This document shows, piece by piece, positions 27,832 to 38,707 of a stretch of 64,000 nt of DNA. The stretch is taken from contig NZ_CP094828.1 in the NCBI RefSeq assembly GCF_022865125.1, positions 4,829,219 to 4,893,218 on the forward strand, written 5' to 3'. Source of the stretch: Acuticoccus sp. I52.16.1 (GTDB lineage Bacteria > Pseudomonadota > Alphaproteobacteria > Rhizobiales > Amorphaceae). How positions within the stretch are numbered: the first letter of the stretch is position 1; each line of letters starts with the position of its first letter. Below the pieces are notes generated by a model, which was given only the letters and a program-made list of their open reading frames with translations, was not told the DNA's origin and searched no databases. The position numbers were made by a program, and so were the translations under genes.

Positions 27832-30800
27832 TCAGCGGCGCCGGGGTAGCCGCTGGCGCGACGGCAACAGGCGCCGGCCGGGGCGGATGGGGCCGCGCGG
27901 GCGATGCGGCGTCTCGTCGTCGTCCTCCGGTGCTTCGGGCTGGGGCGCGGCGGGCGCCGGCTCGTCGATGGCACGGAACGGGCCGGGCTCGGCGGGGGCG
28001 GCGGCACTCGCGGCCTGGCGCCCGGGCAGCGGGACCCAGACCATCGCGTCGTCGCCGCCGCGCACATCGCCGCCGCGCGCATCGTCGCCATGCGAACCGA
28101 GGGCGACGGGGTGATGGGTGCCGAGCCAGTCGGTCGAGAACAGGCCGTGCGCGCCGCTCAGGTCCTCCAACCCGGCCGGCAGCGCGTCGTTGGCGAACTC
28201 GCCCCCCGGAATGGGGACCGAGCCGTCCATCGCGGTGCCGACGGTGGGGTCGCCGAAGGTCGGGGCGTCCTCGTCGGTCGCGATCGGGCTCTCGGCAAAG
28301 CCGGGCGCCTGGGCGGTGCCGGCGTCGAAATTGCCGTGAACCTCGCCGAACGGGCGGTGATCAGGCGACGGCGTCTCGGCCCGCATCGGCGGGATCGACG
28401 GCTCGGGCTCCTGGACGATCCCTTGGCTCGGCTCGTCCTGTGGCACCGCGGCGTCCACGCGTGCGGCGGACGGGGCCGGTTCGTGCGGAGGCGGCGCGGT
28501 GTGCTGCTGCGCGGCGGCGGGTCGGGGCGCTTCCGGCACGGCCGGGCGAGCCGTGGTGGTGCCGGGTTTCGCCGCGACGAACATCGGGCGCGGCGCGGGC
28601 GCAGCGGGACGATTGCCCGGCGCAGCGGGCGATGGCTCGCGCGAACGCTGCGCCCCGCTCTGCCCGGCCGGCGGCGTCGTCGCCTCCGGGACGGTCGGTC
28701 TCGCCGCAGGGGCATCCGGCGCCGAATGCCCGCTAGGCGAGGTGCCGTCCGCTGCGTGGGGCTCGGCCGCGGTCGCGGGGGGACGCGCTCCGCCCGGCTT
28801 CGCCCCCTCGCGCGGCGCCCCCTCGCGCGGCGTCGGCACGCCAGCGGCCGGCGGCGCCTCGGCGGCGGCACGCGCGGGCTGCGTCTCGCTGGCTGCGACC
28901 TTGGCGACCCTGTCCGGCTTCGCGTGAGGTGCGTCAGGCTCGGTGGGTGTCTTGACGGACGGTGTCGTGGCGACGGGGGCGCTGGTGCCGGCCGGTTGCG
29001 GGGGCGCTGTCCGAGTTCCGGCGGGCGTCCCGGCCTGGAGGGGCGGCGCAGGTGAGGTCGACGGCGCGGCCGTGCCGGGCTCCGCGCGGCCGGCTGGCGG
29101 CGCGACCGGAGCGGGAGCGGCTTCGCCGGCGCCGACGCGGGTCGACGGTGACGGCGATTCCGGGATCGGCCCTCCGGCCGCCGGGGCGGGTCGCTCTGGC
29201 GCGCCGTTTGCGGACGTTCCGCTGGCGGCGGCCTTCGGCGTGGGCGCAACCGTGTGTCCGCCTCGGTTCTCGGCCGTGGACGACGCGTGGGTCGCGGTCG
29301 GGGCGCGCGGCGTGGTCGAAGCGGGTTCGGTGCTCGGTGCGGCGGCGGCTCGGGCGCTCGCCCGATGCGGTGCGCGCTGGGCCTCACCGTCGGGGGCGGC
29401 GTGCGGCGGCGTCACCCCCTCGGGTGCCGCAGCCTTCGCGGATCCGATCGCTGCCGCGGCCGGGCGGGCGGGCGCACTGTCGCGCCCCGCGGCGGTCGGC
29501 ACGTCCCGCGGAGGGGGCGCCTGCGGGGCGGCGGCGGCCTTCGCGGTATCGGCGCCCGGCGCGGGCGTTTCGTCGCCCGACTGACGCTCCGCGGCCTTCT
29601 GGCGGCGCAAGGCGCGGGCAGCGGCGCGGCGCTTCTCGACCACGGGATCCAACGGCGGCACGCCGGGGCGGCCGCTTTCGGCCTTTGCGGACTGCGCGGC
29701 CGGGGGTGGGGCCTCGGAGCCGGGTGAGGCAGCCGCGTCTGCGCGCCGCGGCGGCTCGACCTTCGGGTCGATCCTGGCCTCGGCCTTCGTCGGCGTCCGG
29801 GGAGGCGGGGTCTTGCGCGCCGTATCGGCGACGACGCGTTGGGCCGCTGCGATCAACTCGGTGGCGCTCGGCTCCGGTTTGGGCTCTGCGGCGGGCTTGC
29901 CGCTGGAGCGCGCGCGCGGGCGGGATTCGGCCGCCATGCTCTTGCGCGCCAGAAGCCGCTTGCGCAGCCGCTCCGAGCCCGCCTGGAAGGTCGCGGCCGG
30001 AAGGCCTTCGCCGGAGGTGGCGCCCGATTTCGTCCCCTCGGGCGGGGGCGTCCTGCCGGGTGTCGCCGTCGCCGAGGCGGCCTCCGCCGACTTCGGCAGC
30101 GTTGCGGGGGGCGCAGTCCGGGCGGCGTCGTCGGACGCCGGCTTCGGCTCCGCCCGCAGCGGTGGCGCGACATCGGCGGCCGCGGGCTGGGACACCGCAG
30201 GCATCGCGGGGGTCGACACCGTGGCCGCCTCGCTGGGGGACGGAGGCGCGGCGGGCGAGGGCGACGCCTCTGGCGACGAGGCCACCGGTGGGGACGTCTC
30301 TGGCGAGGATGACGGCGGCGATGACTGTGGCGACGATGACTGTCGTGGTGAGGCGGCCGGACGCGCGCCGGGAACTGCACCCGGCATCCCTCGGGCGCCG
30401 TTCGGTGCCGCGTCGATACCGGCGGAGGCCGTCGCCGCTGCGGCGAACGGCACGGAGCCATCCCCCTCGGGGGTAAATGTCGCCATCTCCTCGGAGCCGG
30501 CCGGCGTCTTCGCACTCGTGGCGGGCGTCGTCTTCGCCACGGTCGCAGGCGCTGCTGTCGACGGTGCCGCGGGAGGGGCGGGGCGGGGCGGAACGAATGC
30601 CTCGGCGGTAGCCGGGGCCTTCGGCGCCGCGCGGGGGGCGAGCGCCGCGGCGGCGGCCGCTGTCGGCATGGTGGCGGCGGCGGCCGTCGGAGCCGGGGCG
30701 GCGGAGATGCGCGCGCGCGGCATCACCGGTGGCGGGGCGACGCGGGCGCCCGGCGCGGCGTCGAAACGCAGGGCGCGGCCGAGGCGCGACGAACGACGCG

Positions 30801-31740
30801 CGGCACCCTGCGCGCGGCTCCGGGCCGGGGGGGCGTCGAGGATGAAGGCGTCCATCGCCGCGAAGGCGAGGTCGCGCAATTCGTCCCGCTCGAGCAGCAC
30901 CTGGTGGCGTGCGCCGGGGATCAGCACCGCGCCGCCACCCGGCGCGGACCGGGCGAACCGGTCGATCACCGGGGTCGACACGATCTCGTCCCGCCCCGAG
31001 GCGACGAACAAAGAGGGGATCGGCAGCGGCAACCCCACCTGGCGCTGGACCCTGCGGCCCGCGGCGATCGTCGCCCGCACCCAGCCCAGCGTCGGCCCGG
31101 CGATGGCGAGGTCCGGGTTGGCGTCCGCGAGGCGTTGCAGCTGCTGGTAGCGCTGCGGGTCGCTGGTGATGCGGTTCTCCTCGAACGGAGTCGGTCCCTC
31201 CGGCGACCGGCGCACGCGCATCCGGTCGAGCCCGAACAGAGCCGCCGCGCCGCCGATCAATCCGATCAGCCCGGCCGGCAGCGGCAGTTGCGAGATCTGC
31301 AGCACCGGGGCGAGGAGGACCATGCGCTCCACCTCGTCGGCGAGGCGGGGGGCGGCGGTGAGGGCGACGAGCCCGCCCATGGAGTGGGCCACCACGTAGA
31401 ACGGGCGCGGCAGGCCCTGCTGCGCGGCGAAGCGCACCACGGCGCTCAGATCGTCGGCATAAGCCTTGTAACTGCCGATGTGGCCGCCGTTCTGACGAGG
31501 CCGTTTCGAGCCGCCTTGGCCGCGGTGGTCATAGGCGACGACCGCGAAACCGCGCTGGCAAAAGTCGGCCGCCGTCTCGCCGTAGATCTCGATGAATTCG
31601 CCCAGGCCCTGGACCAGGATGACGGTCCCCGGACCCTCCGTCGCACCCGGCCAGAAGGCCAGGCGCAGCGGGGCGCCGGCGTTCAGGATTCCGATGGTTC
31701 CGCCGAGGTCGATGGATCCCCAACTCGCAGGTCCGGCCAC
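27832..31740 (-). CDS. Alpha/beta hydrolase (lysophospholipase/monoacylglycerol-lipase-like) with a very long disordered tail
   Basis: Residues 1 to about 305 form a serine hydrolase of the PldB/monoglyceride-lipase group: AYDHRGQGGS oxyanion region, nucleophile AHSMGG (Ser120), acid in SGRDEIV (Asp251), and His279 in GARHQ. About 1,000 further residues are extremely rich in Pro, Ala, Ser, Thr and Glu and predicted disordered. Two short basic helices break the pattern (RLRKRLLARKSMA and VEKRRAAARALRRQK), and the extreme C-terminus is Arg-rich. I start at GTG 31740, with GGAG five bases upstream. The TTG at 31788 would run through the divergent heat-shock promoter. It is first in a transcript with the TerB/DnaJ and amidase genes. 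Confidence 0.8.
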   Translation of the reverse strand: MAGPASWGSIDLGGTIGILNAGAPLRLAFWPGATEGPGTVILVQGLGEFIEIYGETAADFCQRGFAVVAYDHRGQGGSKRPRQNGGHIGSYKAYADDLSAVVRFAAQQGLPRPFYVVAHSMGGLVALTAAPRLADEVERMVLLAPVLQISQLPLPAGLIGLIGGAAALFGLDRMRVRRSPEGPTPFEENRITSDPQRYQQLQRLADANPDLAIAGPTLGWVRATIAAGRRVQRQVGLPLPIPSLFVASGRDEIVSTPVIDRFARSAPGGGAVLIPGARHQVLLERDELRDLAFAAMDAFILDAPPARSRAQGAARRSSRLGRALRFDAAPGARVAPPPVMPRARISAAPAPTAAAATMPTAAAAAALAPRAAPKAPATAEAFVPPRPAPPAAPSTAAPATVAKTTPATSAKTPAGSEEMATFTPEGDGSVPFAAAATASAGIDAAPNGARGMPGAVPGARPAASPRQSSSPQSSPPSSSPETSPPVASSPEASPSPAAPPSPSEAATVSTPAMPAVSQPAAADVAPPLRAEPKPASDDAARTAPPATLPKSAEAASATATPGRTPPPEGTKSGATSGEGLPAATFQAGSERLRKRLLARKSMAAESRPRARSSGKPAAEPKPEPSATELIAAAQRVVADTARKTPPPRTPTKAEARIDPKVEPPRRADAAASPGSEAPPPAAQSAKAESGRPGVPPLDPVVEKRRAAARALRRQKAAERQSGDETPAPGADTAKAAAAPQAPPPRDVPTAAGRDSAPARPAAAAIGSAKAAAPEGVTPPHAAPDGEAQRAPHRASARAAAAPSTEPASTTPRAPTATHASSTAENRGGHTVAPTPKAAASGTSANGAPERPAPAAGGPIPESPSPSTRVGAGEAAPAPVAPPAGRAEPGTAAPSTSPAPPLQAGTPAGTRTAPPQPAGTSAPVATTPSVKTPTEPDAPHAKPDRVAKVAASETQPARAAAEAPPAAGVPTPREGAPREGAKPGGARPPATAAEPHAADGTSPSGHSAPDAPAARPTVPEATTPPAGQSGAQRSREPSPAAPGNRPAAPAPRPMFVAAKPGTTTARPAVPEAPRPAAAQQHTAPPPHEPAPSAARVDAAVPQDEPSQGIVQEPEPSIPPMRAETPSPDHRPFGEVHGNFDAGTAQAPGFAESPIATDEDAPTFGDPTVGTAMDGSVPIPGGEFANDALPAGLEDLSGAHGLFSTDWLGTHHPVALGSHGDDARGGDVRGGDDAMVWVPLPGRQAASAAAPAEPGPFRAIDEPAPAAPQPEAPEDDDETPHRPRGPIRPGRRLLPSRQRLPRRR

Positions 31741-31761
31741 TGTCACTCCACACGAAAAGGT

Positions 31762-31790
31762 CTTGAAGAGGGTACGGGGGGCCACCAAAT
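31762..31790 (+). promoter_or_regulatory. Probable RpoH (heat-shock sigma) promoter
   Basis: CTTGAA at 31762-31767 and CCAAAT at 31785-31790 are separated by 17 bp. This fits the alphaproteobacterial RpoH pattern (CTTGAA, 17-18 bp, C-rich/AT -10). It would start a leader of about 87 nt that contains the ROSE-like hairpins. Confidence 0.6.
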
Positions 31791-31794
31791 CACC

Positions 31795-31883
31795 GGTGCG
31801 GTCGCCACACTCGGGGCCGCACCGAAGACTGGGATACTGGCCGTTCGGCAGTATCGCAAACGTTGCTTCTCATGGAGGACACA
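31795..31883 (+). ncRNA. ROSE-like RNA thermometer leader
   Basis: Three consecutive hairpins can be drawn in the leader. 31795-31823: GGTGCGG with CCGCACC. 31833-31855: GATACTG with CAGTATC. The last, about 31863-31880, pairs TTCTC with the ribosome binding site GAGGA around a 3-nt loop. The final one has TTGCTTCTCATGGAGGA, closely matching the ROSE element's conserved TTGCT followed by GGAGGA, which masks the ribosome site at low temperature. Layout and length fit ROSE elements of rhizobial small heat-shock genes. Confidence 0.65.
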
Positions 31884-32342
31884 ATGCGTCAATTCGATCT
31901 CACCCCCCTCTATCGCTCCACCGTCGGTTTCGACCGCCTGTTCTCGCTGCTCGACAATGCGTCGGCCGTGAATCAGACCCAGACCTATCCGCCGTACAAC
32001 ATCGAGCGTACCGCCGATGACGAGTACCGGATCACCATGGCCGTCGCCGGGTTCACCGAGAACGAGCTCACCGTCGAGGTGAAGGAAAACACCCTCACCG
32101 TAACCGGTCAGAAGGCCGAGACCGAGAGCGAAAACGACAACTTCCTGTATCGTGGTATCGCCGCTCGTGCGTTCGAGCGCCGTTTCCAGCTCGCCGATCA
32201 CGTCCATGTGACGGGCGCGTCGTTGGATCACGGCCTGCTCCACGTCTCGCTTCGGCGCGAGGTTCCGGAGGCCAAGAAGCCCCGCACCATCGCGATCGAG
32301 GGCGCCGGGCAGCCCAAGGCGATCGACGCCCAGGCCGCGTAA
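31884..32342 (+). CDS. Small heat-shock protein, Hsp20/IbpA family
   Basis: A 152-residue ATP-independent holdase. The alpha-crystallin domain covers about 35-130. It starts with YPPYNIERTADDEYRITMAV, contains the VEVKENTLTVTGQK strand pair, and ends with LDHGLLHVSLRREVPE. The C-terminal TIAIE provides the I-x-I oligomer motif. The N-terminus MRQFDLTPLYRSTVGFDRLF is typical of rhizobial class A (IbpA-like) proteins. The ATG at 31884 is five bases after GGAGGA, inside the ROSE-like hairpin. Expression is probably controlled both by RpoH and by temperature-dependent opening of the leader. Confidence 0.95.
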   Translation: MRQFDLTPLYRSTVGFDRLFSLLDNASAVNQTQTYPPYNIERTADDEYRITMAVAGFTENELTVEVKENTLTVTGQKAETESENDNFLYRGIAARAFERRFQLADHVHVTGASLDHGLLHVSLRREVPEAKKPRTIAIEGAGQPKAIDAQAA

Positions 32343-32502: not shown

Positions 32503-33570
32503 TCAGTCGTCGGCGCCGAGCGTCCGAGCGACCGCGTCGATTTCCTCGTCCGTGGTGCGGAAGCTCGCCACGAAGCGGTGGAGGCCGGCGCCCGGCAGGT
32601 CGGCCGGTGCGGTCGGCGCGTGGGCGGAGCGCATGTCGGCCCAGGGGGCGAAGGTGATCTCGGCCGCCCGCAGCCGCTCGGCCATCTGCGGCCTCAGCCA
32701 GACGAAGATCTCGTTCGACTGCGACGGGTAGGCGGCGGGGGCGCCGGCCGCGGCCAGCCGCGCGGCGAGCTTCGCCGCCATCGCGTTCGCGTGGGTGGCG
32801 AGGTCGAGCGCGTGGCCGTCCTCCAGCAGGGCGCAGGCCTGCGCCGCGGCGAGGCGGTTCTTGGAAAACAGCATCGCCGCCTGCTTGTGGCGGTACGCGG
32901 TGTCCTCGGCGAGCGCATCGTCGAACAGGACGACGATCTCGCACGCCCAGCCGCCGACCTTGGTGAGCCCCAGCGACACGGCGTCCACCCCCGCGCGCCA
33001 CGTCAGGTCCGCGGCCGACACGCCCAGGTGCGCCAACGCGTTGAAGAAGCGCGCCCCGTCCATGTGCACGGCGACGCCCTGCGCCTTGGCCATCGCGGCG
33101 AGGGCGGCCACCTCCTGCGCGCCGTAGCACTGGCCGGCCTCGGTGACGTTGGTGAGGCTGAGCACGGTCGGGCGCCCGTTGTGCACGTTGGCGGGCCGAT
33201 AGTCGGCCAGGCGGGCGGCGAGCGCGGCCGGGTCGATCCGTCCGCCCGGCCCGTCGAGCGTGTCGATCAGCTGCGGGGCGAACTGAAGCGGCGCGCCGGC
33301 TTCGTCGCGGGCGATGTGCGAATCGCGGTGAGTGAGGACGACGCCGCCCGGCCGGCTGTAGGCCGCCAGCGCCAGCGAGTTGGCCGCGCTCCCGGTGGCG
33401 ACGAAGAAGGCCGTCACCTCCCGCTCGAAGAGCGCGGCGAGCGCGGTCCTCGCGCGCCTGGTCCAGGGGTCGTTGCCGTAGGCGGGGGCGGGGCCGGCGT
33501 TGGCCTGCGCGAGGCAGGCCATGACGCGCTCGGACGCGCCGGCCCAGTTGTCGGAAGCGAAGGAAATCAA
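32503..33570 (-). CDS. Threonine-aldolase-family PLP enzyme
   Basis: A 355-residue fold-type I PLP enzyme of the beta-eliminating lyase/threonine aldolase family, which splits L-threonine or L-allo-threonine to glycine and acetaldehyde. Visible sites are HMDGARFFNA (PLP Asp171 and phosphate-side Arg174), SLGLTKVGG with Lys204 as the Schiff-base lysine, and HIARDEAGAP near 85-94. The start is a TTG at 33570 that overlaps the stop of the DoxX gene (TTGA) with GAGG upstream, so it is translationally coupled to the buf operon. Upstream in-frame residues do not resemble the family. Whether it has a role in the metallopeptide system is unknown. Confidence 0.85.
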   Translation of the reverse strand: MISFASDNWAGASERVMACLAQANAGPAPAYGNDPWTRRARTALAALFEREVTAFFVATGSAANSLALAAYSRPGGVVLTHRDSHIARDEAGAPLQFAPQLIDTLDGPGGRIDPAALAARLADYRPANVHNGRPTVLSLTNVTEAGQCYGAQEVAALAAMAKAQGVAVHMDGARFFNALAHLGVSAADLTWRAGVDAVSLGLTKVGGWACEIVVLFDDALAEDTAYRHKQAAMLFSKNRLAAAQACALLEDGHALDLATHANAMAAKLAARLAAAGAPAAYPSQSNEIFVWLRPQMAERLRAAEITFAPWADMRSAHAPTAPADLPGAGLHRFVASFRTTDEEIDAVARTLGADD

Positions 33571-34115
33571 AAGTGACCTCGGCGAGTGAAGAACCGATCG
33601 AGCGAGATGGGGCCGGGCCCCGTCATCACCAGCGTCAGCAAGAGGTAGGCCCATAGCGCGCGCTGGTCGGCGATGGCCGAGGTCGCCACGTTGTCGAACC
33701 AGGAACCGATCGTCGTCGCATCGACTGTATGCCCTCGAATGTCCACGTACGTCATCACCGCGATGAAGCCGATCATGCCGAGCGCCGCAAGCCGCGTGAA
33801 GAGGCCGACCACAATCAGGATGGGCAGGACGATCTCCGCATAGGTCCCGGCGGCGACGATCGCGACGTCGAGCCCCGAAAGGGCGGCCCGGTCGTAGCCG
33901 GCGGCCTCGAACGTCAGCGGCAGGATCTGGACGTAGGCGCCGTCGCTGAGGGTGAGGAAGCCGAACACGCCGTCGCCCAGCTTGGTGCGCGCGCTGTTGA
34001 GGAAATAGACGAGGAAGACCCCCGCGAAGACGATCCGCCCGAGCGTGCCGAGCAGCCAGGGACCGAACAGCCGTTCAGCCGAGCGGAAGACGGAGTTGTG
34101 GAGACGCACCAGCAT
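33567..34115 (-). CDS. bufD: DoxX-family membrane protein of the buf operon (BufD-like)
   Basis: A 182-residue inner-membrane protein with four predicted helices (about 25-45, 82-105, 108-130, 150-170) and the DoxX-type RIVFAGVFLVYFLNSARTKL segment. DoxX proteins are regular members of DUF692/DUF2063/DUF2282 operons; a redox or respiratory-chain-linked role is assumed. The ATG at 34115 has GAGGAC upstream. The same frame stays open upstream through the 15-bp tandem array, where it would read as His- and Asp-rich pentapeptides, but no standard start codon lies there. The stop overlaps the TTG of the aldolase gene. Confidence 0.85.
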   Translation of the reverse strand: MLVRLHNSVFRSAERLFGPWLLGTLGRIVFAGVFLVYFLNSARTKLGDGVFGFLTLSDGAYVQILPLTFEAAGYDRAALSGLDVAIVAAGTYAEIVLPILIVVGLFTRLAALGMIGFIAVMTYVDIRGHTVDATTIGSWFDNVATSAIADQRALWAYLLLTLVMTGPGPISLDRFFTRRGHF

Positions 34116-34163
34116 GTCGCGGTCCTCGGGTCTTTGGTGATGGTCGGGCGGTGCCGCACCGGT

Positions 34164-34328
34164 CGCGCGGTCGTCGGACGCGCGGTCGTCGGTCGCGCGG
34201 TCGTCGGACGCGCGGTCGTCGGTCGCGCGGTCGTCGGTCGCGCGGTGGCGGATCGCGCGGTGGTGGATCGCGCGGTGGTGGATCGCGCGGTCGTGGATCG
34301 CGCGGTGGTGGATCGAGCGGTCATGGCC
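34164..34328. repeat. 15-bp tandem array (11 units) between bufC and bufD
   Basis: The unit CGCGCGGTSGTSGRW repeats without spacers: units 1-5 are CGCGCGGTCGTCGGA/T, units 6-10 are CGCGCGGTGGTGGAT-like, and unit 11 is degenerate and contains the bufC stop codon. The divergence gradient shows two sub-families. Because the unit is a multiple of three, each frame gives a pentapeptide repeat; the bufD frame gives (A-T-D-D-R)n then (A-I-H-H-R)n in genomic order. Confidence 0.95.
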
Positions 34329-35061
34329 GGTCGGCGAAGGCGCCGGCGGCGAGGAGGGCGGCCAGCGTCTCGGCGAGGGCGAGGCCCTCGACCGCCGCGG
34401 CCTGCGCGAGCGGTTCGCCCGCCATGAGCGCCGCGGCGAAGGTGGCGCCGGCGGGGTCGAGCGGGGCGACGTGGACCTCCATCGCCGGCCGGGTGACGAG
34501 GGCGGCAGCGGCGCTGCACGGGCTCCCCGCACGCCATGCGCCGTGACCGCCGCCCGGCGTCGCGACGAGGCGGGCCGCGGGGTGCGGCGCGAGGGTCAGG
34601 GCAGCCAGCGCGGCCGGCGCCAGGGCGAGGCGCTCGGGCCGCAGCGCGGCGGCGTCGGCGGCGTGGAAGGCGGCGACGCGCGCATACTCGAGTCGCGCGC
34701 ATTCGCCGACGTGCGCGGCGAGGTGGCCGGGGCGCATGAGGAAATCGGCGAACGCGTCGCCATAACGGAGCAGCACCGGGCTGCGCGGCCTGTGCGCGGC
34801 GGCGTAGGCGATCGCGGCGCCGCGGAAGTCGTCCGCGCCCATCAGCCGGCGTGTCTGCGGGAAGGTCGCTGCCAGGGCTTCGGCGAGCGAGTGGGCGACG
34901 TTGTTGCGGTAAACGGCGAAGCGGTCGCCGGCCGGGCACCCGTGCCCGTCGACCAGCCCCGCGACGGGGCCGCCGCGACGGGCGAGCGCGGCGACGAAGC
35001 CGGCTTCGGTGGCTGCGTCCGGCGCCGCTACGGTCTCGAAGATCTCCCTGTCAGTCGACAT
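34321..35061 (-). CDS. bufC: DUF2063-domain protein, partner of the MNIO enzyme (BufC-like)
   Basis: A 246-residue protein with the DUF2063 (HvfC/BufC) N-terminal domain: F-V-A-A-L near 25, GDRFAVYRNNVAHSLAEAL near 48-66, TFPQTRRLMGADDFRGAAIAY, and a PRSPVLLRYGDAFADFL helix. This domain was formerly called a putative DNA-binding domain but now appears as the partner that presents the precursor peptide to DUF692 enzymes. The ATG at 35061 lies inside the bufB coding end (11-bp overlap). The C-terminal half is Ala-rich. The stop sits in the last unit of the tandem array. Confidence 0.88.
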   Translation of the reverse strand: MSTDREIFETVAAPDAATEAGFVAALARRGGPVAGLVDGHGCPAGDRFAVYRNNVAHSLAEALAATFPQTRRLMGADDFRGAAIAYAAAHRPRSPVLLRYGDAFADFLMRPGHLAAHVGECARLEYARVAAFHAADAAALRPERLALAPAALAALTLAPHPAARLVATPGGGHGAWRAGSPCSAAAALVTRPAMEVHVAPLDPAGATFAAALMAGEPLAQAAAVEGLALAETLAALLAAGAFADRP

Positions 35062-35932
35062 CGGCCCGCGCGTCGGATGCATCGGCGAGGGCGGCGGCCA
35101 TCGTCCGGTCCGCCTTGGCCGCCTCCGCGGCGAGCACCGGGAAGGACGGCACGGCATTGTCCCACTCGATCAACGTCGGCACCGGGCGGCCCATCCGGGC
35201 GATGAGCGCGCGGTAGAGCGCCCAGACCGACGGGCCGACCTCGCGGTCGTGCGCGTCGATCAGGAGGGGGGCGCCGGCGGCGTCGACCTCCTCGGCGTGC
35301 CCGGCGAGGTGGATCTCGCCGACCGCCTCCAGCGGAAAGGCGTCGAGATAGGCCTCGGCCGGCGTCCCGAGATTGACCGCCGACACCACCACGTTGTTGA
35401 CGTCGAGGATCAGGCCGCACCCAGTCGCCGCGACGATCCGACGGATGAACGTCACCTCGTCCATCGTCGAGGCCTCGAAGGCGGCGTAGCTCGACGGGTT
35501 CTCGAGCAGCATCGGCCGGCCGAGCGCTTCCTGCACCTGGTCGATATGGGCGACCACGCGGGCGAGCGCCGCCTCGGTATAGGGAACCGGCAGGAGGTCG
35601 TTGAAGTAGGCGCCCTCGTGGGTGGACCAGGCGAGGTGTTCGGAGACGAGGCCGGTGTCGTAGCGCGCGGCGAGGGCGGCGAGGCGGGCGAGGTGCGCCG
35701 CGTCGAGCGGGCCTTCGCCGCCGATCGACAGGCCGACGCCGTGGAGCGACACCGGCAGCTTCTCGCGGACGGCGGCGAGGGCGCGGTGCGGCGGGCCACC
35801 CTCGCCCATATAGTTCTCGGCGTGGACCTCGACGAAGCCGACCGCGGTGGGATCGGCGAGGAGCGCGTCGGCGTGGGCGAGCTTGAAGCCGATGCCGGCG
35901 CGGGCGGGGATCGTGGCGTCGATGATGTCCAT
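35051..35932 (-). CDS. bufB: DUF692 multinuclear non-heme iron oxidative enzyme (BufB-like)
   Basis: A 293-residue TIM-barrel enzyme of the MNIO family (MbnB, TglH, BufB), which uses an iron cluster to modify cysteines in ribosomal peptides. The family's ligand motifs are all present: FVEVHAENYMG (33-43), LHGVGLSIGG (63-72), SEHLAW (97-102), LENPSSY (143-149), ILDVNN (175-180), HLAGH (208-212), DAHD (226-229) and IEWD (255-258). The likely substrate is the DUF2282 peptide encoded just upstream, with the DUF2063 protein as recognition partner. ATG 35932 follows GGAGG. Subfamily assignment rests on the neighbours. Confidence 0.93.
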   Translation of the reverse strand: MDIIDATIPARAGIGFKLAHADALLADPTAVGFVEVHAENYMGEGGPPHRALAAVREKLPVSLHGVGLSIGGEGPLDAAHLARLAALAARYDTGLVSEHLAWSTHEGAYFNDLLPVPYTEAALARVVAHIDQVQEALGRPMLLENPSSYAAFEASTMDEVTFIRRIVAATGCGLILDVNNVVVSAVNLGTPAEAYLDAFPLEAVGEIHLAGHAEEVDAAGAPLLIDAHDREVGPSVWALYRALIARMGRPVPTLIEWDNAVPSFPVLAAEAAKADRTMAAALADASDARADVD

Positions 35933-35942
35933 GGCACCTCCG

Positions 35943-35972
35943 GCCGTGCCGCCTCCGGCGAGGCGGCACGGC
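35943..35972 (-). promoter_or_regulatory. Intercistronic hairpin between bufA and bufB
   Basis: GCCGTGCCGCCTC (35943-35955) pairs perfectly with GAGGCGGCACGGC (35960-35972) around a 4-nt loop. It fills most of the bufA-bufB gap and has no T-run. Such a structure could stabilise the short bufA message or dampen read-through, giving much more precursor than enzyme. Confidence 0.6.
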
Positions 35973-35989
35973 GTGAAACGAGACCGGCG

Positions 35990-36346
35990 TCAGGCGGGCT
36001 GGGCGACCGGCTTCAGCTTGGCGGCGTCGGTGCCGTCGGGGAGGTCGCGCGCCAGGCCTTCGAACCCGCCGGCGTCGAGTTCGGCCTTGGTGGCGCCGGC
36101 GCGCCCGCCCGGCAACTCGGTGTCGGCGCAGGTGCCCGCCGGCACCAGGGTCCAGGCGTTACCCTGGTAGTCGACCGTGGAGGTTCCCGCGCACGTCGTG
36201 CCGGGGCCGGCCGCGCAGTCGTTCTCGCCGGCCAGCGACACGCCGAAGCACTTCTCCTTGGCTTGGGCCAGCCCCGGGGCCGCGGCCATCGACGCGGCGG
36301 CGGCCACGGCACCGGCGAGCGCGGCGTAGGATATCGTCTTGCTCAT
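35990..36346 (-). CDS. bufA: DUF2282 precursor peptide (bufferin-1-like BufA)
   Basis: A 118-residue secreted small protein: Sec signal peptide about 1-29 (ending GLAQA), then a core with four conserved cysteines, Cys33 (KEKCFGV), Cys44 (ENDCAAGPG), Cys52 (TTCAGTS) and Cys73 (PAGTC), and the DUF2282 signature [10 protein letters not shown]. In bufferins the MNIO enzyme converts core cysteines to heterocycles that chelate copper, and the mature peptide acts outside the cytoplasm. It is first in the bufABCD operon; 159 bp of upstream sequence hold its promoter, which I could not define. AGGAGA precedes ATG 36346. Confidence 0.9.
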
Positions 36347-36505
36347 GCGATCGTCTCCTGATGGCGCGGTGATGTTTTTTGATGGACGCGCCTTGCACCC
36401 AACGTGGTGGAGGGGGGTGCTCACGCCCTATTCAACATGCCGCGAGCATACCGTGGGTTGGCGTGATCGTGCCATGAAGCGGGCAGGGCGCGGCGACCGG
36501 CGGTA

Positions 36506-37447
36506 TTATCCGGCGGCGCCGGCAGCGGCGGCGCTGGTCTGGCGCTCGCGGGCCGCGCGGCGCAAACTGTCGGCGAAGGCGGCGGCGTCGGGCGACAACG
36601 TGTCGCCCGCGCGCGTGGTGAGACCGATGGGGCCGAGGGTCGACGCGGTGTCGAGCGGGAGGGCGGCGAACTCGCCTGCCGCGAGTTCGGGCGCGACGAC
36701 GTTGGACGAGATGATCCACACCGCCGAGTAGCGTCGCAGGAAGGCGCGGCCGAAGCTGTCGGACACAGTCTCGATCACGTGGCGCGGGCGCGGCAGGCCA
36801 AGCTCCATGAAGAGGCGGTCGACGACCGGGCGGATGATGCTCCCCGCCGGCGGCAGGAGGGTGACGACGTCGCCGAGGGCCTCGCGCGGGGCGGTCCGGA
36901 AGCGCTCCACGTCGCGCGCGGCGACGACGAAGACGACCGAATCGTGCGACAGCGGCTCGAACGCGAGGCTTACCATGTCCTCCGGCGCCGGCAGGCGGCC
37001 GACCACGAGGTCGAGCCCGCCGCGGCGCAGCCGGTCGATCAGCATGTCCTGTTCGCCCGACGCGATCGACAGCCGCGCCGACGGGTTGAGCCGCAGGTAG
37101 CGCCACGCCGCGTCCGGCACCAGCGCGGTCGCCACCGTCGGCAGCGCGCCGACGCGCACCGGCGCGGCGTCCCGCTCGCCGGCCACCGCCGCCACCCCGC
37201 CGCGCATCGCGTCGAGACCGGCGATGGCGTGGCGCAGGAAGACCTCGCCCCCCGCCGTCAGCCGCACGCCGCGCCCGAAGCGCTCGACCAGCGGTGCGCC
37301 GCACGTCGCTTCCAGTTCGCGCAGGGTGCGGCTGACGGCGGGCTGGGTGAGGTTGAGCCATTCGGCCGCCCGGCTGACGCTGCCGAGACGGGCGGTCTCG
37401 ACGAAGACTTCCAGGTGGCGCAGGCGCAGGCGGCTGGGTGAATTCAT
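36506..37447 (-). CDS. pcaQ: LysR-family regulator of protocatechuate catabolism (PcaQ)
   Basis: A 313-residue LysR protein with helix-turn-helix GSVSRAAEWLNLTQPAVSRT near 22-41 and a PcaQ-like effector domain (LPTVATALVPDA, then TLLPPAGSIIRP). It is divergent from pcaDCHGB, the classical place of pcaQ in alphaproteobacteria, where the protein activates the operon in response to beta-carboxy-cis,cis-muconate-type intermediates. The ATG at 37447 opens MNSPSRLRLRHLEVF. The buf operon lies downstream on the same strand but is separated by 159 bp and is probably independent. Confidence 0.92.
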   Translation of the reverse strand: MNSPSRLRLRHLEVFVETARLGSVSRAAEWLNLTQPAVSRTLRELEATCGAPLVERFGRGVRLTAGGEVFLRHAIAGLDAMRGGVAAVAGERDAAPVRVGALPTVATALVPDAAWRYLRLNPSARLSIASGEQDMLIDRLRRGGLDLVVGRLPAPEDMVSLAFEPLSHDSVVFVVAARDVERFRTAPREALGDVVTLLPPAGSIIRPVVDRLFMELGLPRPRHVIETVSDSFGRAFLRRYSAVWIISSNVVAPELAAGEFAALPLDTASTLGPIGLTTRAGDTLSPDAAAFADSLRRAARERQTSAAAAGAAG

Positions 37448-37465
37448 ACCATTATTGTTATGGAT
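37448..37465. promoter_or_regulatory. Candidate PcaQ operator
   Basis: ACCATTATTGTTATGGAT contains the inverted repeat CCAT-N7-ATGG. On the minus strand the segment reads ATAACA-N4-TGGTAT, close to the ATAACC-N4-GGTTAA motif reported for rhizobial PcaQ sites. It abuts the pcaQ start and lies 68 bp upstream of pcaD. Confidence 0.5.
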
Positions 37466-37533
37466 CCGGCTCAGAATGTCATTTCCTATCTGCGGGCGAT
37501 GATGGCAATCTCGCCAACGCGTTGGGAGGAAAC

Positions 37534-38334
37534 ATGCGCTTCATAAAAACCAACGGCGCGACGCTTCACGTGGACCACCGGCCCGCGGAGGCCGGATCGC
37601 CGACGATCGCGTTCTCGAACTCGCTGGGAACGGACATGCGCATCTGGGACGGCGTCGTCGCCGCGCTGCCGGCCGCATGGGGCATCCTGCGGTACGACAC
37701 GCGCGGGCAAGGGCTGTCCACGCTCTCGCCCTCCGGCGACGTCGCGACCAACGCGGACGACCTCGCCGGCCTGTGCGACGCCTTGAAGCTCGACAAGGTC
37801 GTGCCGTGCGGTCTGTCCATCGGCGGGCTCATCGTCCTGAAGTTCGCGCTCGACCATCCGGACCGGGTGGCGGGGCTGATCCTCACCTGCTCCGGCGCGC
37901 GCATCGGCGCCCGGCACGATTGGGAGGCCCGCATCGCCACCGTGCGCTCGCAGGGGCTCGCGGTGCTGGGCGAGGCGACGATGGAGCGTTGGTTCTCGCC
38001 CGCCTTCCGCGCCGGCGCCGCCGACGTGATCGACGGGATGCGCGCGATGCTGGAGCGCCAGCCCGTCGCCGGCTATGCGTCGCTCTGCGCGCTCCTACGC
38101 GACACCGACCTCACGGCCGAGACCGGCCGCATCGCGGTGCCGACGCTGGGGATCGCCGGCAGCCTCGACCAGGCGACCCCGCCCGATCTGCTGAAGGAAA
38201 CCGTCGCGGGCATCGCCGACGGCACATACGTCGAGCTCGAGGGGCTGGCACACATCCCGTGCGTCGAGGATCCGGACCGGCTCGCCGGGGCGATCGCGCG
38301 CTTCATCGCCGAGAAGGGGATCGCCGGTGCCTGA
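37534..38334 (+). CDS. pcaD: 3-oxoadipate enol-lactonase
   Basis: A 266-residue alpha/beta hydrolase that opens beta-ketoadipate enol-lactone to beta-ketoadipate, the last step encoded in this operon. The nucleophile is Ser95 in CGLSIGG, RYDTRGQG near 53-60 is the usual family block, and the catalytic His is in EGLAHIPCVEDP near the C-terminus. ATG 37534 follows GGGAGGA. It overlaps pcaC by 8 bp. Confidence 0.95.
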   Translation: MRFIKTNGATLHVDHRPAEAGSPTIAFSNSLGTDMRIWDGVVAALPAAWGILRYDTRGQGLSTLSPSGDVATNADDLAGLCDALKLDKVVPCGLSIGGLIVLKFALDHPDRVAGLILTCSGARIGARHDWEARIATVRSQGLAVLGEATMERWFSPAFRAGAADVIDGMRAMLERQPVAGYASLCALLRDTDLTAETGRIAVPTLGIAGSLDQATPPDLLKETVAGIADGTYVELEGLAHIPCVEDPDRLAGAIARFIAEKGIAGA

Positions 38335-38707
38335 CGACATCTACGAGACCGGCCTCGCCACCCGCCGCAAGGTGCTGGGGGAGGCGCACGTCGATCGTGC
38401 CTCCGCCGGCATCACCGCCTTCGACGAGACCTTCCAGCGGATGATCACCGAGGCGGCTTGGGGCCGCACGTGGTCCTCCGGGGGCCTGCCGATGCGCGAG
38501 CGCTCGATGATCACGCTGGCGCTGCTCGCCGCGCTCGGCCACTGGGACGAGTTCCAGATGCACCTGCGCGCCACCCGCAACACCGGCGCCAGCGAAAAGG
38601 ACATCGCCGAGGTGCTGATGCATGTCGCCATCTATGCCGGCGTGCCGGCCGCCAATCACGCGATCAAGCTCGCCAAGGCGACGCTGAACGCGGACACCGA
38701 AGCCTGA
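38327..38707 (+). CDS. pcaC: 4-carboxymuconolactone decarboxylase
   Basis: A 126-residue AhpD-like helical protein that decarboxylates gamma-carboxymuconolactone to the enol-lactone used by Pca[14 protein letters not shown] near 13-25, [15 protein letters not shown], then [18 protein letters not shown] are typical. It starts on GTG 38327 inside the end of pcaD and is a stand-alone PcaC, not fused to PcaD as in some actinobacteria. Confidence 0.95.

Follow-up and report, generated by a model that had tools for sequence, protein, structure and literature searches.

The 64,000-nucleotide stretch of Acuticoccus sp. I52.16.1 DNA analyzed here (to be referred to as the window) contains, at positions 33567–36346, a well-supported candidate for a complete bufferin operon of the known Buf1 type. 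The genes are located on the minus strand and run from 36346 to 33567 in the order bufA, bufB, bufC and doxX. Open reading frames and Pfam matches place all four of them where the original prediction had them, and the predicted order, DUF2282-DUF692-DUF2063-DoxX, is the same as in published Buf1 operons. The reading as a whole, that an Acuticoccus-group bacterium produces a bufferin with the chemistry, export and copper binding of its published counterparts, is very probably correct. It is based on the family matches, the invariant cysteines, the alignment of BufB with the solved structure 3bww, the fold likeness of BufC, the conserved gene order and the published Buf1 operons. With it, one more bufferin cluster is added to the thousands mentioned in PMC12452194.

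The first gene, bufA (35990–36346), starts with ATG and encodes a DUF2282 (Buf1) precursor of 118 residues (PF10048, 83.4 bits; cut-off 22.4). After a gap of 57 bases, bufB (35051–35932) encodes an MNIO enzyme of 293 residues (PF05114, MbnB_TglH_ChrH, 340.7 bits; cut-off 25). It overlaps by 11 bases with bufC (34321–35061), the product of which is a DUF2063 partner of 246 residues, similar to those of PME-type 1 (PF09836, 80.2 bits; cut-off 27.2). The last of the four, doxX (bufD, 33567–34115), is separated from bufC by 205 bases and encodes a long-type DoxX membrane protein of 182 residues. A single MNIO match and a single DUF2282 match (E ≤ 0.001) are found in the entire genome, both in this operon, and the order bufA-bufB-bufC is kept in all 20 loci retrieved from relatives for this comparison.

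Precursor, maturase and partner protein

The comparisons below cover 99 loci. A scan of named genomes added 80 loci, the best 80 of at least 535 relatives as ranked by a BufB alignment led by the present one, and two loci that duplicate L089 and L113 (L036 and L046, respectively) were removed.

BufA has cysteines at residues 33, 44, 52 and 73. All 100 BufA matches (from 96 of the 99 loci) keep these four columns, and together with the PF10048 score this bears out the predicted four-Cys DUF2282 precursor. Six further columns are invariant in the same matches (G35, G40, N42, A46, S56 and G84, in whole-protein numbering). The N-terminus, inspected by eye, resembles a signal peptide, with a short basic start, a hydrophobic stretch and AQA ahead of the core. 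No NCBIfam model matches BufA, and its single match among solved structures, a low-complexity one to a designed protein, was set aside. In Buf1 bufferins, modification affects the central cysteines, and a disulfide joins the first to the last (PMC12452194). Two tandem BufA genes are located ahead of one BufB in four of the loci (L101, L102, L149 and L163).

BufB passes the NCBIfam model NF050167, 'MNIO family bufferin maturase', with 366.4 bits against a cut-off of 310. The remark in the original prediction that genes of this class are usually left as DUF annotations is therefore out of date for this enzyme. BufB stays under the NCBIfam cut-off for HvfB (223 against 360) and far under that for MbnB (60.8 against 325). 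It can be aligned with the solved MNIO structure 3bww over residues 12–218 and 221–270, and more weakly with TglH (8hci) and the MbnB entries of the PDB. The metal ligands are presumably the His, Asp, Asn and Glu residues that are conserved in this alignment. In one relative (L047 in genome G006), the BufB match is in two pieces (residues 6–223 and 214–284) inside one open frame of 409 residues. Either the enzyme carries an insertion or the split comes from the assembly, and the BufB tree was built without this sequence.

A sequence search of the PDB gives no match for BufC (E ≤ 0.1), and its NCBIfam score for HvfC is far under the cut-off (37.6 against 142). Its AlphaFold2 model, made from 37 sequences, has a confidence score (pLDDT) of 89.1. 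The two best PDB folds found with Foldseek are 8hci_A of the TglHI complex (E 2.4e-3, 228 columns) and 3dee, the structure of NGO1945 (E 3.6e-3, 210 columns), and these are the only chains with a probability of 1.00. The DUF692 chain of 8hci is D, and chain A is therefore presumably TglI. Both TglI (8hi7) and NGO1945 are named as MNIO partners in PMC12452194. As modeled, BufC is predicted to be a DUF2063 partner with an RRE-like second domain (PME-type 1).

Proposed function

Homology to published bufferins suggests thiooxazole formation and copper binding for the present system as well. BufA would carry a Sec-type signal, and its two central cysteines, C44 and C52, would be oxidized to thiooxazoles by BufB in the cytoplasm, with BufC presenting the precursor. 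BufA would then be exported, with a disulfide between C33 and C73, and the product would bind excess copper in the periplasm. DoxX would be a membrane accessory.

Several observations weigh against this reading. No Foldseek match of the BufC model reaches E ≤ 0.001. The DoxX protein scores 21.7 bits, 1.9 below the PF07681 cut-off of 23.6. All four named families are matched, but the assignment to DoxX depends on related sequences: in an alignment of 21 that includes the present one, 20 match at E ≤ 0.001, the best at 3.7e-9. The protein is also far under the NCBIfam cut-off for HvfX (22.1 against 80), and a DoxX gene, though frequent in Buf1 operons, is not universal there. Moreover, a sigma-F-type site (GTAAC-N15-19-CGAA, loosened from GTAACC-N16-CGAA as given in PMC3511200) is absent from the 220 bases upstream of bufA, which include the upstream region at 36347–36505 (minus strand). 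The sigma-F wiring known from Caulobacter and from Sinorhizobium RpoE7 is absent at this promoter. Finally, such operons have been linked to chromium, cadmium and perhaps other stresses (PMC12452194 and PMC3511200), and copper therefore need not be the only or the main metal.

With the same chemistry, the main role could concern another metal or oxidative stress. In Caulobacter, comparable operons under sigma-F react to chromate and cadmium (PMC3511200), other metals are suggested as well (PMC12452194), and the promoter class here is not sigma-F-like. On the other hand, the bufferins and the other characterized thiooxazole peptides described in PMC12452194 and PMC13097082 bind copper. A main role other than copper is considered unlikely, and copper binding is the preferred reading.

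The bufC-doxX spacer

Most of the spacer between bufC and doxX is filled by a tandem array of a 15-bp unit (34160–34322), with about 11 copies as found by Tandem Repeats Finder. The array is particular to this locus, as had been claimed: it occurs at this junction and is absent from the other 92 of the 93 bufC-doxX junctions examined. In seven other genomes of the genus, the spacer has 24 to 168 bases, with start codons chosen by a script. Elsewhere in the present genome there are five weak matches to the array (30–77 bases), none of them a comparable array. The most likely explanation of the array is neutral expansion within the spacer.

A functional array, tuning the DoxX output either as an intercistronic RNA structure or by adding repeats to the N-terminus of DoxX, is very unlikely. 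The 208-nt spacer does have a predicted RNA fold of −80.6 kcal/mol (z −3.35), with 0 of 200 shuffles as low, but a GC-rich repeat may give such a value without function, as periodic repeats pair with one another. The array has no stop in the doxX frame, which is kept open through the repeats. However, doxX has its own ATG with GAGGA ahead of it, in register with relatives, and the restriction of the array to one junction also argues against a function.

The threonine aldolase gene

Downstream of doxX, also on the minus strand, is a gene (32503–33570) for a threonine aldolase-like pyridoxal phosphate (PLP) enzyme of 355 residues (PF01212, 163.2 bits). Its TTG start codon at 33570 overlaps the doxX stop by four bases, as TTGA, and an identical overlap is found in seven of the eight genomes of the genus. 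The unit therefore probably has five genes, with the aldolase co-transcribed as the last one. The operon extent originally proposed is complete with respect to its four genes, but the unit itself probably runs past 33567 into this gene. Among solved structures, those nearest to the product in sequence are L-threonine aldolases, with a match to 7yvr at E 1.5e-65; its scores stay under the NCBIfam cut-offs for GntG and PRK10534. The gene is assigned by this match as a putative L-threonine aldolase.

A set of 61 genomes was searched for both BufB and the aldolase (E ≤ 0.001 and E ≤ 1e-20, respectively), which gave BufB in 43 and the aldolase in 42 of them. The two adjoin in all eight genomes of the genus (this one counted), in both other genomes of the family, and in 8 of the 19 genomes from other families that hold both (G021, G022, G024, G029, G032, G048, G049 and G057). 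They are apart or on different contigs in the remaining 11 of the 19. The association had been thought particular to this locus, which is wrong because the linkage recurs in the genus, the family and many other Hyphomicrobiales.

Across the 99 loci, the aldolase is downstream of the buf genes in 26 (for example in Roseibium, Labrenzia and Pannonibacter), upstream in 8 (such as Martelella, Nitratireductor, Oricola nitratireducens and Chelativorans) and missing in 53; the other 12 have too little flank for a decision. The 26 include one locus (L139) with the aldolase about 5 kb away, which was recoded as 'far' after this count. In L080 (G058), BufC-like and DoxX-like genes precede the aldolase, with no BufB match there, and the BufB of that genome is elsewhere, near NrsF. 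The record of another locus, L137, is titled Marinicella sp. W31, yet the locus falls with Martelella both in its BufB and in its gene order; its aldolase is in two frames.

Alternatively, the aldolase could be a working fifth component, co-induced with the bufferin and with a role in stress, for example in adjusting glycine or clearing an aldehyde. Adjacency in the genus, the family and 8 of 19 other genomes is consistent with this, as are the four-base overlap and the shared strand of aldolase and buf genes in all 34 linked loci, in two orders and with one pair about 5 kb apart. In a tree of the aldolases, however, the buf-linked copies are not united, with 8 changes over 35 linked copies and 14 apart (L137 was left out, and L080 was coded as linked). 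A dedicated clade of buf-linked aldolases is ruled out by this tree, and the gene may therefore be just an inherited neighbor. In addition, 13 of the 61 genomes carry the aldolase without BufB.

The hsp20 gene also argues against a working component. A convergent Hsp20 gene forms a conserved flank of the present locus (31863–32342, plus strand; PF00011, 75.5 bits) and of many related loci. It also adjoins the aldolase in 10 of 13 aldolase loci whose flanks of 1.5 kb contain no buf genes, with 30 of the 45 aldolase matches covered. The aldolase-hsp20 pair therefore looks like an old neighborhood, with the buf genes inside or beside it. Moreover, in all eight upstream-type loci, a sequence box (see below) is located between the aldolase and bufA, and the 320 bases ahead of the aldolase contain none. 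The gene is the only aldolase match of this genome at E ≤ 1e-20, as expected of a housekeeping gene. Overall, a working fifth component is improbable, and an inherited neighbor with its own metabolic job is most likely.

No link between bufferins and threonine aldolase was found in open-license PubMed Central (PMC) papers, and the word 'aldolase' is absent from the main texts of PMC12452194 and PMC13097082. Among the matches listed for that literature, none combines threonine aldolase with DUF2063, DUF692 or DUF2282, or with DoxX. The recurrent neighbor nonetheless raises a testable question, whether amino-acid metabolism is tied to bufferin production.

Promoter classes

Upstream regions of bufA were obtained for 94 of the 99 loci. 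A motif search was carried out on 27 such regions from the 34 linked loci, with near-copies removed and L139 still included, using 60 random starts for the real set and 30 for each of eight shuffled sets. It found tTTGATTTCCantTGA, with a log-likelihood ratio of 170.6 as compared to 54.6 to 64.4 in the shuffled sets. The corresponding box, TTGATTTYY, is present upstream of bufA in 22 of 33 aldolase-linked loci (15 of 25 downstream and 7 of 8 upstream) against 2 of 52 unlinked ones, and in none of 8 with too little flank. The difference between 7 of 8 here and the eight of eight given above arises because L102 has two bufA genes, with the box before the first. The box is clear in Roseibium and Martelella.

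The sigma-F-type site shows the opposite distribution: none of the 33 linked loci has it, as compared to 31 of the 52 unlinked ones and 4 of the 8 with too little flank. Site and box are together in none of the 94 regions. On the reverse strand, one of the 94 regions has the box and three have the sigma-F pattern. When sorted by DoxX length, 0 of 41 loci with a long and 34 of 48 with a short DoxX have the sigma-F site, against 22 of 41 and 2 of 48 for the box. These counts are from a sample weighted to close relatives, and for the box, the linked loci that were counted are also those from which it had been derived. The distribution of the traits tracks the phylogeny, and only 2 to 4 phylogenetically independent pairs are supported for aldolase, DoxX type and promoter class, too few for any conclusion on their association.

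For the operon in the window, sigma-F control is ruled out because no sigma-F-type site is present at the bufA promoter. The genome does have an extracytoplasmic function (ECF) sigma factor with NrsF (L169, G000:C1 near 1220436–1221047), about 3.6 Mb from the buf genes along the contig. A GTAACC-CGAA site, which is sigma-F-like, is located ahead of this sigma factor gene. The same pattern has 11 matches genome-wide, compared to 4 for the reversed pattern, and single sites are therefore weak evidence. NrsF is found in 16 of the 61 genomes, in 14 of them over the cut-off. It is within 2 kb of BufB in six genomes (G013, G035, G042, G050, G053 and G058), in all of which the aldolase is elsewhere. 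Within the genus, only the present genome and G005 have NrsF, away from the buf genes.

To score the box in the genus against 500 shuffles, a matrix was built from 19 sequences, none of them from the genus or from its two family relatives. The best site in the window is reached by 95 of 500 shuffles and is not significant; a TTGA-N7-GTGA sequence at about −90 from bufA has a weak likeness to the box of the relatives. Two other genus loci stand out (L037, 1 of 500; L033, 3 of 500), two are weak (L089, 26; L038, 55), and the rest do not stand out. For the family relatives, the best site is reached by 0 (L039) and 7 (L042) of 500 shuffles. A shorter pattern in the genus, TTTATT followed by GCGTGA, was noticed only afterwards, by eye, and no claim is made for it. 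A longer pattern, TTGATTTYCNNNTGA, has 8 matches in the genomes of four relatives as compared to 0 for the reversed control, and 2 of the 8 are buf promoters. Among the matches listed for the box sequence in open-license PMC papers, none is relevant by title.

These observations suggest, at low confidence, that Hyphomicrobiales bufferin operons fall into two regulatory classes. One would be driven by sigma-F. The other would have the TTGATTTCC box and an unnamed regulator, would be off sigma-F even where sigF-nrsF is kept, and would have the longer DoxX and, in many lineages, an aldolase working in the stress response; the present operon would belong to it by kinship. If the promoter split is real, two or more stress signals would control bufferin production, and Roseibium or Martelella would be places to look for the regulator.

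Flanking genes

Directly upstream of bufA is a gene for a PcaQ-type LysR regulator (36506–37447, minus strand; TIGR02424, 345.8 bits, cut-off 303.8). It is found beside the buf genes in two of nine other genus and family loci examined (G005 and G003), and is probably unrelated to them. Its surroundings (36506–38707) include, on the opposite strand, an alpha/beta hydrolase and a carboxymuconolactone decarboxylase, as in protocatechuate pathways.

Further away, a frame of 1318 residues on the minus strand (27832–31788) consists of an alpha/beta hydrolase (Hydrolase_4, 137 bits) followed by about 1000 Ala/Pro-rich residues. A tRNA-Ala (ggc) call of 96 bases opposite this frame (29090–29185, plus strand) is probably a false positive.

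Comparison with known systems

The operon shares the MNIO family and a partner protein with methanobactin (MbnB) and pearlin (TglH) systems, with a weak match in sequence. Those systems have leader-type precursors instead of Sec signals (PMC12452194), and the MbnB score of BufB is far below the cut-off. An MNIO and a DUF2063 partner are also shared with the captophorins, or oxazolin-type EGKCG operons (HvfABC and fontiphorin), where DoxX is often present and the product contains thiooxazole (PMC13097082). The captophorin class also takes in DUF2282 precursors (PMC13097082). In contrast to the EGKCG operons, the precursor here is of the DUF2282 family and has no EGKCG repeats, and BufB is under the HvfB cut-off.

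The SMb20530–20527 operon of Sinorhizobium meliloti has the gene order membrane protein-DUF692-DUF2063-hypothetical protein. It too is from Hyphomicrobiales and is a DUF692-DUF2063 operon, in the RpoE7 regulon (PMC6180224). Unlike the present operon, it is driven by RpoE7, which is encoded by the next locus number, from a GTAAC-type promoter (same source).

With the Buf1 operon of Caulobacter (CC3254–CC3257), the present operon shares the DUF2282-DUF692-DUF2063-DoxX order, the four cysteines and the signal-peptide-like N-terminus of the precursor. It differs in that the locus lacks both a sigma-F site and sigF-nrsF, which the genome has about 3.6 Mb away, and in its long-type DoxX, its downstream aldolase and its 15-bp array.

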